NCBI RefSeq assembly: GCF_000422505.1
Contig: NZ_KE383867.1
Coordinates: 128,494 to 192,493 of the forward strand
Direction: 5' to 3'
Source: Paenibacillus pinihumi DSM 23905 = JCM 16419
GTDB lineage: Bacteria; Bacillota; Bacilli; Paenibacillales; Paenibacillaceae
Length of the DNA stretch: 64,000 nt
Every line of letters starts with the position of its first letter. Positions within the stretch are counted from its first letter, which is position 1. Both the position numbers and the translations under genes were made by a program. The notes beneath the pieces were generated by a model. The model was not told where the DNA came from. It did not search any database and saw nothing but the letters and a program-made list of their open reading frames with translations. This document shows, in pieces, positions 39,716 through 46,478 of the stretch.

Positions 39716-41350
39716 ATGGCTAAAGATATTAAATTTAGTGAAGACGCACGCCGCTCGATGCTGCGCGGGGTAGACGCGCTGGCAAATGCGGTTAAAGTAA
39801 CACTCGGTCCTAAAGGCCGTAACGTAGTATTGGAAAAGAAATTCGGAAGCCCGCTCATCACAAATGACGGTGTATCCATCGCAAAAGAAATCGAGCTGGA
39901 AGATGCATTCGAAAACATGGGTGCTCAACTGGTTAAAGAAGTTGCAACTAAAACCAACGATGTAGCTGGTGACGGTACAACAACTGCAACAGTTCTGGCT
40001 CAGGCTATGATCCGCGAAGGCTTGAAAAACGTAACTGCCGGCGCTAACCCTATGGTTATCCGCAAAGGGATTGAAAAAGCGGTTCGCGCTGCTGTTGAAG
40101 AGCTGAAAAACATTGCGAAGCCAATCGAAGGCAAGCAATCTATCGCTCAAGTTGCTGCAATTTCTTCCGCTGACGATGAAGTTGGACAATTGATCGCAGA
40201 AGCTATGGAAAAAGTGGGCAACGACGGTGTTATCACAGTTGAAGAGTCCAAAGGTTTTGTAACAGAGCTGGAAGTCGTAGAAGGTATGCAATTCGACCGC
40301 GGCTACATCTCTCCTTACATGATCACTGACACAGACAAAATGGAAGCTGTACTGGATAACCCGTACATTCTGATCACAGACAAGAAGGTCACGAACATTC
40401 AAGAGATTCTTCCTGTTCTGGAGAAAGTCGTTCAATCCGGCAAGCAACTGCTGATCATCGCAGAAGACATCGAAGGCGAAGCTTTGGCAACCCTCGTAGT
40501 GAACAAACTGCGCGGAACCTTCACTTGTGTCGGCGTTAAAGCTCCAGGCTTCGGCGACCGCCGCAAAGCAATGCTGCAAGACCTTGCTGCCCTGACCGGC
40601 GGTCAAGTGATTACAGAAGAGCTGGGTCTGGATCTGAAATCCACTACTGTGGAGCAGCTTGGTTCTGCACGTCAAGTGCGTGTAACCAAAGAAAACACGA
40701 TCGTTGTTGATGGAAGCGGAGATTCTGCTGACATCCTGGCTCGTGTTAACCAAATCAAAGCTCAACTGGAAGATACAACTTCCGAGTTCGACCGTGAGAA
40801 GCTGCAAGAGCGTCTGGCTAAATTGGCTGGCGGCGTAGCAGTAATCAAAGTCGGAGCAGCTACTGAAACTGAATTGAAAGAGCGCAAGCTTCGCATCGAG
40901 GATGCCTTGAACTCCACCCGCGCTGCGGTTGAAGAAGGTATCGTATCCGGTGGTGGTACGGCTCTGGTTAACGTATATAACGCGGTAGCGGCAGTTCAAA
41001 CGGAAGGCGACGAGCAAACAGGTGTTAACATCGTTCTGCGCGCGCTGGAAGAGCCTGTACGCACAATCGCAGCGAATGCAGGCCAAGAAGGCTCTGTAAT
41101 CGTTGAACGTCTGAAAAACGAAAAAATCGGCGTAGGCTACAATGCAGCTTCCGGCGAGTGGGTAGACATGTTCGCAGCCGGTATCGTTGACCCAGCGAAA
41201 GTAACCCGCTCCGCACTGCAAAACGCAGCATCTGTTGCAGCGATGTTCCTGACAACTGAAGCTGTAGTAGCTGACAAACCAGAAAAAGACAAACCAGCTA
41301 TGCCAGACATGGGCGGCATGGGTGGAATGGGAATGGGCGGCATGATGTAA
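39716..41350 (+). CDS. groEL: chaperonin GroEL
   Basis: Complete 544-residue Gro[85 protein letters not shown] (ATP-binding region), and the C-terminal Gly-Met repeat tail ([13 protein letters not shown]). AAGGAGGG precedes ATG 39716. The last 17 bases of the coding region and 22 bases beyond it are duplicated at 46440-46478, marking the 3' end of groEL as the target of an inserted island. The gene product is intact because the left repeat restores the reading frame and stop codon. Confidence 0.98.
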
Positions 41351-41372
41351 TACAGGCTGAACAGCCTGTGGG
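41334..41372 (+). repeat. left direct repeat (attL-like), groEL 3' end
   Basis: 39 bp covering the last 17 bases of groEL and a small hairpin ACAGGCTG-AA-CAGCCTGT. The right copy at 46440-46478 differs by one base (C to T in the hairpin). Confidence 0.85.
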
Positions 41373-41424
41373 GTATGGGTTTCTCTTTGGGGAAACCTGG
41401 AATGCCCACATTGTGTAAAAATAA

Positions 41425-41464
41425 GATACCTTAGAGTGATGAAAATTGCTCTAAGGTATCTTTT
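41425..41464 (+). terminator. terminator after groEL within the island
   Basis: Twelve-base perfect arms (41425-41436 and 41449-41460) followed by TTTTG. A diverged copy with compensatory base changes is found at 43238-43288. Confidence 0.85.
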
Positions 41465-41490
41465 GTATATCTTGACTAAGGGATGATGAT

Positions 41491-44031: not shown

Positions 44032-46072
44032 TGATAATTACGCCGTAATAGATTCTAAAATAAATATCTTGGCAATTATCACTGGTAACTCAGATTTTGA
44101 TTTTGAAAACTATTCAGAAGACCTTGACGACGATTTTCAAGAACAGTTTTTTGAAACAAAATATTATAAGAAAGTGATAGATTCGTTTAATAAGAATTCA
44201 GTTGTCGTTTTACTTGGGATACCTGGAATTGGTAAGACATTCACGTCAAAACGGTTATGTTTTGAGTATAAAGAACGAGGGTATTCCATTTTATATTCAG
44301 AAAATATTAATGAAAATAATCAAGTTAGAGAAATTATAGACTTTATTTCGAAAAACCCAAAACTTAAGATTTTTATTTTGTTGGATGATTTTCTCGGATT
44401 AAATTACAATTTAATAAAAAGTGAAAAAGATCAAGAAATTGCGAAGTTAATAAAAAAAGTGAAAAAAGAAAATAATAGAATCAAAATGTTGATTAATTCT
44501 AGAATCCCAGTATACAACGTGTTTAAATCTACGAGTGAAAGAACGACACAAGCAATCGACAGTAGCCAAGTCCATGAAATCACTTTTGACTCTTCTTTAG
44601 ATATTTGTGATAAAGCTGGTATTTTATATAATCATCTAAAAAAAGCTTACAAGAATAGATATATTTCAGAGCAACATTATTCTGCTTTATTAAATGAGAA
44701 AAAATATTTGGAAATAATCCTAAATAACGAATTTAATCCAAGAGTCATTGATTATGTTACAAGAGATGTGAAGGATATCGCTCCTGAAAACTATTTTGAG
44801 TATATTATTTTAAATTTAAAAAATCCCGATAAAATTTGGGATAAGGAAATAAAAAATTTACAACAGATTGACAGGATTTTTATTTTTACACTTTTCTCAT
44901 TAACAAAAACTAATGTGAATCTTAGTACTCTAAGAAATTGCTTTGATAAACGAATCAAAAATGAGAACTTTCCAAGTCTAGATACAACGATTTCTCAATT
45001 TGAAGTTGTTTCTACTCGTTTGCTAAATTCAATAATAAAAATTGATAAACATTTTGAAAAAGTTGGTGTATTAAATCCTTCAATTAATGACTGGCTATAT
45101 AAAAATTTAATGAGTAACAGTCTTGAAATAGAAAAAATAATTTCCAGTGCATTGTATTATGAACAGATAGAATGCTTTGATTCTACAATGTATTTTAAAA
45201 AACCTCTTATTGAATTAATGAAAAATTATGAATTTTTAAAACTGAATACCTTACCTAAACTAGTATTTATAGAGTCTATTGAACATACTACGCCGTCGTA
45301 TCTATATTTATTGAAAATGTTATTATGGAAACTTGATGATACAGATTTAGCTAAGATAGGTTTAGATAATGATTGGGTAGAAAATTTTATAGGAGAAATA
45401 TTTACTAGCGAAAACTACAATTTGGTAGAGAGCGAAGCAAGACTTTACAACCCATTAAAAAGTTCAGAAATATTTTGCAAGTTATTTTCCGAACCACTAA
45501 TAAATAAGTATAATCTTACAAAAGTTATTACTAATAAAAAATATTTTGAGGTAATACTTAAGTCTGTTGCAAGAGATGAAGCCTACTTCTGTATTTTAAA
45601 CAATATCTGCAAAAAATATAAAATTTGTTTTGAAGACGATTTTTATAACTTGCCTCAAGTAAGAAGTGCATCGATAAATAATATAGCGACCCATGTAGGT
45701 AATGAAATTTATGATCAATTAGTTTCAAAAATTCAGGAGAGTGCAGCTAGTAATATTGATAATCATGAAGGAGAACCCTTTGATGATTTTGTTGACACTA
45801 TTTATGACGAAATCTACGATGTGCTAAACAATATGATATCCGAGGCTATATCTGAAAAGTTATATAAAGAAAATATTGAATGGTTAGATGAAACTGATTT
45901 TGATATTGATACAATAATCAGTGATGAAGTTGAGTTATATGATTTAATTCGTGATAAATGTTCTATTTATTGTCAATCTGAAGATTTGGAATATAACGAT
46001 AAAAGAAATATAGAAAAAGAAATAATTGATGTCATTGAAATGTTTGAAAGTTCAAAATTTTTCATTTCATAG
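43997..46072 (+). CDS. nSTAND3-type NTPase, probable defence protein
   Basis: About 690 residues, very AT-rich. P-loop domain: Walker A GIPGIGKT (about 74-81), Walker B IFILLDDFLG (125-134) and the sensor segment INSRIPVYNV (about 166-175). The DDFLG-NSR/TTR pattern resembles the nSTAND3 NTPase group of bacterial conflict systems. The following about 450 residues are helical, with no recognised repeat, and the end is acidic. The frame opens at a TTG without ribosome binding site; a strong AGGAGGG (44022-44028) is followed by an ATG in another phase that gives only five codons, so the true start is unclear. It could be made by frameshifting from the upstream membrane peptide or be a pseudogene of a longer protein. 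Confidence 0.65.
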   Translation: MFEKKKITQEGNDNYAVIDSKINILAIITGNSDFDFENYSEDLDDDFQEQFFETKYYKKVIDSFNKNSVVVLLGIPGIGKTFTSKRLCFEYKERGYSILYSENINENNQVREIIDFISKNPKLKIFILLDDFLGLNYNLIKSEKDQEIAKLIKKVKKENNRIKMLINSRIPVYNVFKSTSERTTQAIDSSQVHEITFDSSLDICDKAGILYNHLKKAYKNRYISEQHYSALLNEKKYLEIILNNEFNPRVIDYVTRDVKDIAPENYFEYIILNLKNPDKIWDKEIKNLQQIDRIFIFTLFSLTKTNVNLSTLRNCFDKRIKNENFPSLDTTISQFEVVSTRLLNSIIKIDKHFEKVGVLNPSINDWLYKNLMSNSLEIEKIISSALYYEQIECFDSTMYFKKPLIELMKNYEFLKLNTLPKLVFIESIEHTTPSYLYLLKMLLWKLDDTDLAKIGLDNDWVENFIGEIFTSENYNLVESEARLYNPLKSSEIFCKLFSEPLINKYNLTKVITNKKYFEVILKSVARDEAYFCILNNICKKYKICFEDDFYNLPQVRSASINNIATHVGNEIYDQLVSKIQESAASNIDNHEGEPFDDFVDTIYDEIYDVLNNMISEAISEKLYKENIEWLDETDFDIDTIISDEVELYDLIRDKCSIYCQSEDLEYNDKRNIEKEIIDVIEMFESSKFFIS

Positions 46073-46147
46073 ATCTATTTTTAATGTAATTAATCTTACA
46101 CAAGAAATTAATGCTGTCACATGGTAAGTTTATCCCTTAAGATGGTA

Positions 46148-46317
46148 CGGATTGGGGACGAAAGTCTTTATTTCAGGATGAACGGCAACCAAATAGAACC
46201 AACTTCTAATGTGGAAAATCCTTATAAATCAAAGCTCTAGTACGCCGAGACGGATAGGTGCTAACTAGCCTATGTTCCCGCATACGACACACATACCTGA
46301 ATAATTCCATGCCCACA
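46148..46317. repeat. diverged module-end repeat, copy R2
   Basis: About 170 bp similar to R1 at 43061-43228, lying after the NTPase gene and again ending in AATTCCATGCCCACA. The stretch 46318-46439 shows no gene. Confidence 0.6.
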
Positions 46318-46439
46318 ACTTGCCCACGAACTCTACGCACACATCGTATTTTCTTGGATATATATGACTGATTTCTGAAGAAAATCGGACAATAAGGCCA
46401 CCAAAGGACTCAAAAAACCTATAAAAATACTTTTGTCTC

Positions 46440-46478
46440 ATGGGCGGCATGATGTAATACAGGCTGAATAGCCTGTGG
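46440..46478 (+). repeat. right direct repeat (attR-like), duplicated groEL 3' end
   Basis: Copy of 41334-41372 with one mismatch. It includes the last 17 bases of groEL with its stop codon but no upstream coding sequence. Confidence 0.85.

Follow-up and report, generated by a model that had tools for sequence, protein, structure and literature searches.

In Paenibacillus pinihumi DSM 23905 the gene groEL is followed by 5.1 kb of AT-rich DNA that is bounded by two copies of the gene's own end. The locus lies in a 64,000-nucleotide stretch (contig NZ_KE383867.1, positions 128,494 to 192,493), which is called the window here and which supplies all coordinates below. The two copies of the direct repeat, at 41333–41371 and 46440–46478, are identical at 38 of 39 positions with a spacing of 5107, and the left copy consists of the final 18 bases of groEL, including the stop codon, followed by the next 21 bases; an earlier note, written from the letters of this DNA alone, had recognized the 39-bp repeat but divided it into 17 + 22 bases. 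So good a repeat pair is expected by chance about 1e-14 times in 7 kb (equal base frequencies), which rules out a chance repeat. Site-specific integration at the end of groEL, as that note proposed, is well supported by the comparisons with relatives described below, and the 5.1 kb very probably represents what decay has left of two or more related integrative elements, whose insertion site was the last 18 bp of the gene. This reading builds on the repeat, an 18-bp core, conserved element ends, an integrase fragment, convergent integrases in relatives and the near-identity of the region of a PLD-fold gene with that of another genus, each of which is observed directly. The features of the locus, with the basis of each assignment in brackets, are as follows (genomes carry G numbers and loci L numbers).

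39716–41350, plus strand: groEL, the target gene, 544 aa, C-terminus MGGMM-stop (list of open reading frames, ORFs; tail compared across relatives)
41333–41350, plus strand: attL core, the last 18 bp of groEL, ATGGGCGGCATGATGTAA (common to attL/attR of 14 loci including the window)
41351–41470, plus strand: left end of element 1, with a small hairpin, a putative arm-type site ATGCCCACATTGTG at 41402 and a hairpin at 41416–41469 (local alignment to sibling ends)
41491–42573, plus strand: PLD-fold protein of 360 aa, encoded in the pocket that separates core and integrase (PF13091 PLDc_2, E = 1.2e-8)
42585–42714, minus strand: C-terminal fragment of a tyrosine integrase, about 41 residues, the rest of the gene lost (aligns with intact integrase genes of L012–L014, L037 and others)
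43058–43228, no strand assigned: segment repeated at 46146–46317, a possible truncated right end of element 1 (internal repeat search)
43220–43286, plus strand: left end of a second element (arm site and hairpin), core lost (internal repeat search; match behind groEL in other genomes)
43771–44031, plus strand: ORF of 86 aa that overlaps the NTPase gene and has, by eye, a hydrophobic, membrane-like segment; it may be an effector partner (ORF list)
43997–46072, plus strand: nSTAND3 NTPase, 691 aa, candidate phage-defence sensor (PF20720, E = 2.4e-27; PADLOC PDC-S73, E = 1.8e-54)
46310–46439, plus strand: right end, corresponding to the attP left arm, with sites ATGCCCACAACTTGCCCAC that resemble arm sites (identity to sibling right ends)
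46440–46457, plus strand: attR core, the second groEL-tail copy (repeat search; core comparison across loci)
46458–46493, plus strand: DNA right of attR, resembling sibling left ends (local alignment to sibling ends)

The groEL frame is open up to its stop codon at 41350 and its tail is like that of relatives, so that the target gene has been reconstituted, and direct repeats of the target's end flank the insert, the arrangement looked for in a tyrosine-recombinase element at the 3' end of a gene. The description of the insert as AT-rich was borne out, with a G+C content of 0.32 in the PLD stretch, 0.27 in the NTPase stretch and 0.37–0.43 in the remaining insert, against 0.49–0.50 outside. When the genome was searched with a 301-base query covering the groEL end (41200–41500), the matches were groEL, the right repeat and the internal duplicate of the left end only; the repeat is therefore not a dispersed element in its own genome, which answers an objection anticipated in the earlier note. 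No tRNA or tmRNA was found in the window as a candidate target.

The extent of the attachment core was assessed from the attL and attR sequences of 14 loci, including the window. The stretch common to them begins at ATGGG, or in a few one base earlier; identity ends at the stop codon or one base later in seven (G217, G275, G149, G144, G171, G104 and G087) and continues for at least four bases beyond it in the other seven (G223, G278, G187, G094, G049, G232 and the window). As the 18-mer search pattern guarantees the core, only the places where identity stops at its borders are informative, and since it stops at or near the stop codon in 7 of the 14 loci, the 18-bp tail is the best estimate of the functional core. 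The additional 21 bp of the window's repeat are best read as similarity of the adjoining sequence, outside the functional core. The att sequence is a repeat of the groEL end, as had been claimed, but the core common to the elements measures 18 bp and not 39.

The integrase remnant reported earlier was confirmed, its roughly 41 C-terminal residues on the minus strand being alignable with intact integrases of other loci. No integrase of the family was matched in the genome of P. pinihumi itself (G000) at E ≤ 1e-40; an intact integrase gene is present in the sibling elements and absent from the window, and the island is filed here as a relic and not as a working element. Lacking an integrase of its own, it probably cannot move, except by the action of one in trans. 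The missing integrase would also suit an origin of the repeat without integrase action, either through a duplication on the spot or through homologous recombination carrying a groEL-tail copy downstream, but this explanation is contradicted by the same core, convergent integrase, related ends and differing inserts in many genomes, and it retains hardly any credibility.

The use of the groEL tail by integrases was surveyed in several ways. Of 295 Paenibacillaceae genomes searched with the groEL end, 294 matched, with 150 matches listed. An integrase that lies beside a core copy in a congeneric genome was used as query (E ≤ 1e-40) and gave matches in 60 of the 295 genomes, 81 being among the matches listed. 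When the groEL-tail 18-mer pattern was then sought in a set of 65 genomes, consisting of these 60 and five others, it matched in 62. An integrase lies less than 2 kb from a groEL-tail core in 29 of the 60 genomes (31 of the 81 matches listed), and all 31 are on the strand opposite to the core; among the 29, the core of G006 is detached from groEL, and in contig-split genomes the core need not be that of groEL. A GTDB scan by integrase alignment alone, that is, by similarity only, from which the best 80 of 280 relatives were kept, revealed a core within 3 kb 3' of the integrase and on the opposite strand in 67 among these best 80 (54 exact and 13 with one to four mismatches), of which a few mismatched ones at larger distances may be due to chance (about one expected, by a rough estimate). 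The distance between core and integrase is 90–93 bp in 42 of the 67. The 67 span Paenibacillus, Bacillus, Neobacillus, Rossellomorea, Desulfosporosinus, Pelotomaculum, Heliophilum, Anaerosolibacter and others, and include one (L283) on a contig labelled as a Candidatus Nomurabacteria metagenome-assembled genome, which may be misbinned. Integrases of this family were also detected in at least 22 stretches of IMG/VR (22 among the 120 stretches listed). A follow-up of groEL flanks in 40 genomes, of which all but one (L071) were readable, left out genomes already fetched, including those with the strongest adjacent integrases, and so gives no estimate of prevalence; it yielded convergent integrase pieces in three (L072, L076 and L077), a weak same-strand recombinase match in L062 and end-like sequences, judged by eye, in many of the remaining genomes, L068 and L073 having just 242 and 1383 bases behind groEL.

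Other arrangements were seen in two genomes. In Rossellomorea aquimaris (L218, 901–918) a close integrase relative (68%) is found with groEL and an end-like sequence about 5 kb off, on the same strand and not convergent. In the congeneric genome G006 (L005, reverse strand 9647, equivalent to G006:C1:6035337; L004) a core, an element left end and an integrase lie far from both groEL genes, and the groEL copy nearest to that of the window (88% DNA identity) has the tail GGF-stop, not GGMM-stop; a rearrangement at the att site is possible.

By alignment, both ends of the insert and its pocket gene match a group of elements found in G149, G275 and G217. The element of G149, the best annotated of these siblings, encodes an integrase (PF00589) and, by Pfam, a D5_N/DUF5906 primase-helicase, Rad52-like, YqaJ, RadC and DUF932 proteins and a type I methyltransferase, alongside further restriction subunits recognized by eye and a second unit with LmuA/LmuB-like proteins. 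That of G217 carries Rad52-, YqaJ-, RadC- and DUF932-type ORFs (by eye) and, by PADLOC, a type III restriction enzyme, an HKD+Snf2 protein and LmuA/LmuB-like proteins, and that of G275 carries primase pieces and RadC-, DUF932- and type I restriction-like ORFs by eye, with no Rad52- or YqaJ-like ORF noticed. The pocket gene varies, being PLD in G149, PIN_12 in G275 and an Aga_REase match in G217. The combination of an integrase with a primase module, by which phage-inducible chromosomal islands (PICIs) and satellites are recognized, occurs in the siblings and not in the window. Other cargo at this site is what the earlier note had suggested looking for, and indeed the inserts that relatives have at this core differ in cargo and come with intact integrases in convergent orientation, in agreement with its proposal of site-specific integration into the 3' end of groEL with restoration of the stop codon. 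A second core on the same strand lies 7–56 kb downstream in G217, G275, G144, G049, G104, G094, G187, G087, G223, G149, G171, G278, G204 and G273, at 1.2 kb in G232 and at 0.8 kb in G244. Tandem elements at one groEL, marked by three successive core copies, were observed in G104 (spacings 40.4 + 17.5 kb) and G087 (41.3 + 13.3 kb).

Some of the elements at the site are prophages, as judged by a terminase and a portal protein in G223, tape measure proteins in G223, G144 and G278 and a terminase in G087. A single prophage at groEL, decayed to 5 kb and leaving the NTPase and PLD genes as phage accessory genes, would accord with the terminase, portal or tape-measure proteins of the G223, G144 and G087 elements and with phage phiOH2, which GroES and GroEL flank (PMC8303945). 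It is nevertheless very improbable for the window, the ends and pocket gene of which match the G149/G275/G217 group, and the two left ends of which argue for more than one element. A scan of ten further ORFs of the G275 element, which are part of its ORFs, gave no head, packaging or tail family (PHROG), and no Pfam phage structural family above the cut-off was found among the three island ORFs scanned. A 14-kb groEL element in G171 (L037, G171:C55:28057-42226) encodes a replication-initiator-like protein and has a weak prohead-protease match; it is possibly a capsid-gene-carrying satellite.

The preferred reading, of two or more related elements, draws on the anatomy of the insert. The left end of element 1 aligns with a score of 125 to L049 and of 77–86 to L013, L033 and L215, where 200 shuffles, scored only against every third end, reached no more than 32, and its arm site at 41402 would be bound by the integrase. 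The stretch 41402–41466 recurs at 43220–43284 (89%), and this second left end, from 43221 onward, is found whole or in part directly behind groEL in 13 other genomes (G001, G050, G066, G106, G118, G149, G174, G217, G227, G232, G250, G270 and G275), so that ends or scars of this element group are common. With at least two element left ends inside it, the island is probably not the single insert that the earlier note had described. A further internal duplication links 43131–43228 with 46220–46317 (78%). At the right end, 46310–46439 together with the core start is 76–83% identical to the right ends in G275, G217, G232 and G149 and 75–78% identical to two stretches of G006. Beyond the right core, 46458–46493 scores 39 to L005, 37 to L006 and 38 to the window's own left end, with a shuffle maximum of 29 (every third end), and is possibly a still older element scar.

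A motif of about 135 nt at 43064–43198 and 46146–46317 is also present away from groEL in G183, G181, G286 and G196 (Paenibacillaceae), and it matched no Rfam family above threshold. A known structured RNA in the insert was rejected, since all six matches to Rfam at E ≤ 1, of which five are microRNA-type hairpins and one is a small RNA, lie far under the gathering score. The 81 bp at 43428–43508 are 85% identical to a stretch labelled 'transposase | hypothetical protein' in five Paenibacillus phage records and are a possible transposon remnant inside the island; nothing else matched when the phage collection was searched with the island DNA.

The right-hand unit (43220–46478) could also be viewed as a non-autonomous, att-flanked defence cassette that was mobilized in cis by the integrases of its neighbours, a variant compatible with the reading of stacked elements. 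Comparable units exist: in G149 a unit with a Lamassu-like system and no integrase of this family lies between a degenerate core (three mismatches) and a near-perfect one (one mismatch), and in G232 no integrase was detected in a 1.2-kb core-flanked unit. The second unit of the window, however, has no left core, and decay accounts for all of these equally well; the cassette is unlikely.

The right flank bears on the state of the locus before insertion. A hairpin is present at 46518–46559, as noted earlier, but its interpretation as the native groEL terminator, pushed downstream, was not upheld: the stretch 46458–46760 has no match in the other 294 family genomes, and the bases after the right core resemble sibling left ends. 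The gene at 46679 has weak matches only (22–24% identity), in two of six other genomes of the genus. In some relatives no integrase was detected behind groEL, but none of these has the window's right flank. As this flank occurs in no other searched genome and the matches of the 46679 gene are weak, no exact empty site was found, and we infer the empty site of this lineage.

The first of the two cargo modules is the PLD-fold gene. From 41333 to 42714 the window is 93.7% identical over 1417 columns to the left end of the G149 element, which has an intact 401-aa integrase, the alignment running through the PLD gene into the integrase. The PLD gene itself is identical to that of G149 at 1055 of 1080 nucleotides (97.7%) and 347 of 360 residues (96%), with a dN/dS of 0.29, whereas the groEL genes of the window and of G149, a genome of another genus, are 78.5% identical over 460 columns, which indicates that the segment has moved horizontally. 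The G149 homologue likewise adjoins groEL, and one in G050 (81–84%), directly behind groEL, is in two frames and so probably broken; other matches to the protein were found in six of the 295 genomes, all at 47% or below. The ORF is open and appears to be under purifying selection in the single comparison with G149, which fits cargo kept while mobility genes decay, and the protein is a candidate single-gene defence protein. It also has a weak DrmC match (E = 9.3e-7) over part of its length; a DISARM system of DrmC type was rejected, as the match is partial and no DrmA or DrmB match was found among the three island ORFs scanned. In G232 the groEL gene is followed by the 1.2-kb unit between cores (L049, 474–1713), which contains a PLD gene fragment and other sequence and is a smaller relic of the same element group.

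The second module comprises the 86-aa ORF, which matched no Pfam family above the cut-off, and the NTPase, which has the nSTAND3 domain found in PDC-S73-related proteins. Homologues of the NTPase are distant and occur in seven other genomes of the 295, the top three being 35–38% identical. Six of the seven have, ahead of the NTPase, an N-terminal extension of about 150–170 residues; for the seventh the motif used gave no frame. From its looks by eye we take the extension to be Mrr/restriction-endonuclease-like. The window NTPase is without this extension, and the 86-aa ORF stands ahead of it instead; we read the pair as a putative membrane effector and its sensor. The two modules that survive in the window are probably anti-phage, the antiviral function of the cargo being putative.

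In the history that we propose as the simplest, a tyrosine integrase would have recombined the chromosomal groEL tail with an attP that had its own copy of this tail, and groEL would in this way have kept its last five codons and stop. An element with the PLD gene in its pocket would have been inserted first, and a related element beside it next. Deletions would then have removed nearly all of the integrase and element backbone genes and fused the inner end to the second left end at their common ATGCCCACA, leaving the PLD-fold protein as one cargo module and the small membrane-like ORF with the nSTAND3 NTPase as the other.

Several points weigh against this account. Part of 43058–43228, the segment taken as a right end and involved in the presumed fusion, overlaps a motif that is present at unrelated sites in other genomes, away from groEL. 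The same right flank without the island was found in no searched genome. In 31 of the 60 genomes with an integrase match there is none within 2 kb of a core, and 13 among the best 80 of 280 integrase relatives have no core within 3 kb, one of these (L265) having no DNA left to inspect. On the integrase tree (116 rows) groEL targeting does not form one clade; it requires 18 changes, at least 12 of them forced by starred branches, against a shuffled mean of 28.8, and is clustered on the tree but not single. Finally, the PLD motif of the window protein reads HxKx4N, with N where D is presumably usual.

groEL is essential and slowly changing, and its tail is for this reason a landing site that is nearly always present. 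The comparisons point to its use by related integrases in many Bacillota, by those of prophages as well as by those of defence-carrying islands. A wider proposal, possible yet short of probable, is that the window is the relic of an unnamed, non-phage family of integrative elements of Paenibacillus, specialized for the groEL tail, that would carry antiviral cargo at two places, as single pocket genes (PLD-fold, PIN-domain or Aga_REase-like) and as far-end multi-gene systems (type I/III restriction, Lamassu-like, nSTAND), and would act as a swap cassette in which defence genes accumulate through tandem accretion at a single essential gene. The family would fall within a far broader group of Bacillota integrases that target groEL. 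New defence genes can be sought with little effort in the DNA behind groEL, and use of the gene's tail helps to explain why this locus varies so much between related species; for the window, the picture of one inserted island gives way to that of piled-up remains of elements, in which two cargo modules survive.

The end of groEL had been called an unusual target, which does not hold in the light of published elements. In staphylococci, the att site of the island SeCISE48 is reported to overlap the last 18 bp of groEL (PMC8125051) and SaPI2R has 20-bp att repeats in groEL (PMC4457420). Both PICIs are likewise inserted at the groEL 3' end; they differ from the window in host and cargo, and the window copy is without an intact integrase. 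In the Paenibacillus sibling G275 no packaging genes were seen among the ORFs examined. Packaging genes are not obligatory for every PICI. No description of groEL-targeted elements in Paenibacillus, or of a defence-carrying group of them, was found in the literature searched, and absence is not claimed beyond it. In Geobacillus, prophage phiOH2 is flanked by the GroES and GroEL genes (PMC8303945). The integrases of phiOH2 and of the G087 prophage, which sits at groEL, share 38% identity; phiOH2 is a phage, whereas the closest siblings of the window are without phage structural genes among the ORFs scanned. The integrase of mycobacteriophage Bxb1 is of the serine type. Bxb1 uses the chaperonin gene groEL1 as attB and inactivates GroEL1 on integration (PMC9262239), whereas the groEL tail is restored in the window. 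With P4-like satellites and other satellite defence hotspots, the siblings share an integrase, a D5-type primase-helicase and variable defence cargo, and they are set apart from P4-like satellites by a backbone of RadC, YqaJ, Rad52-like and DUF932 proteins, as seen in G149.

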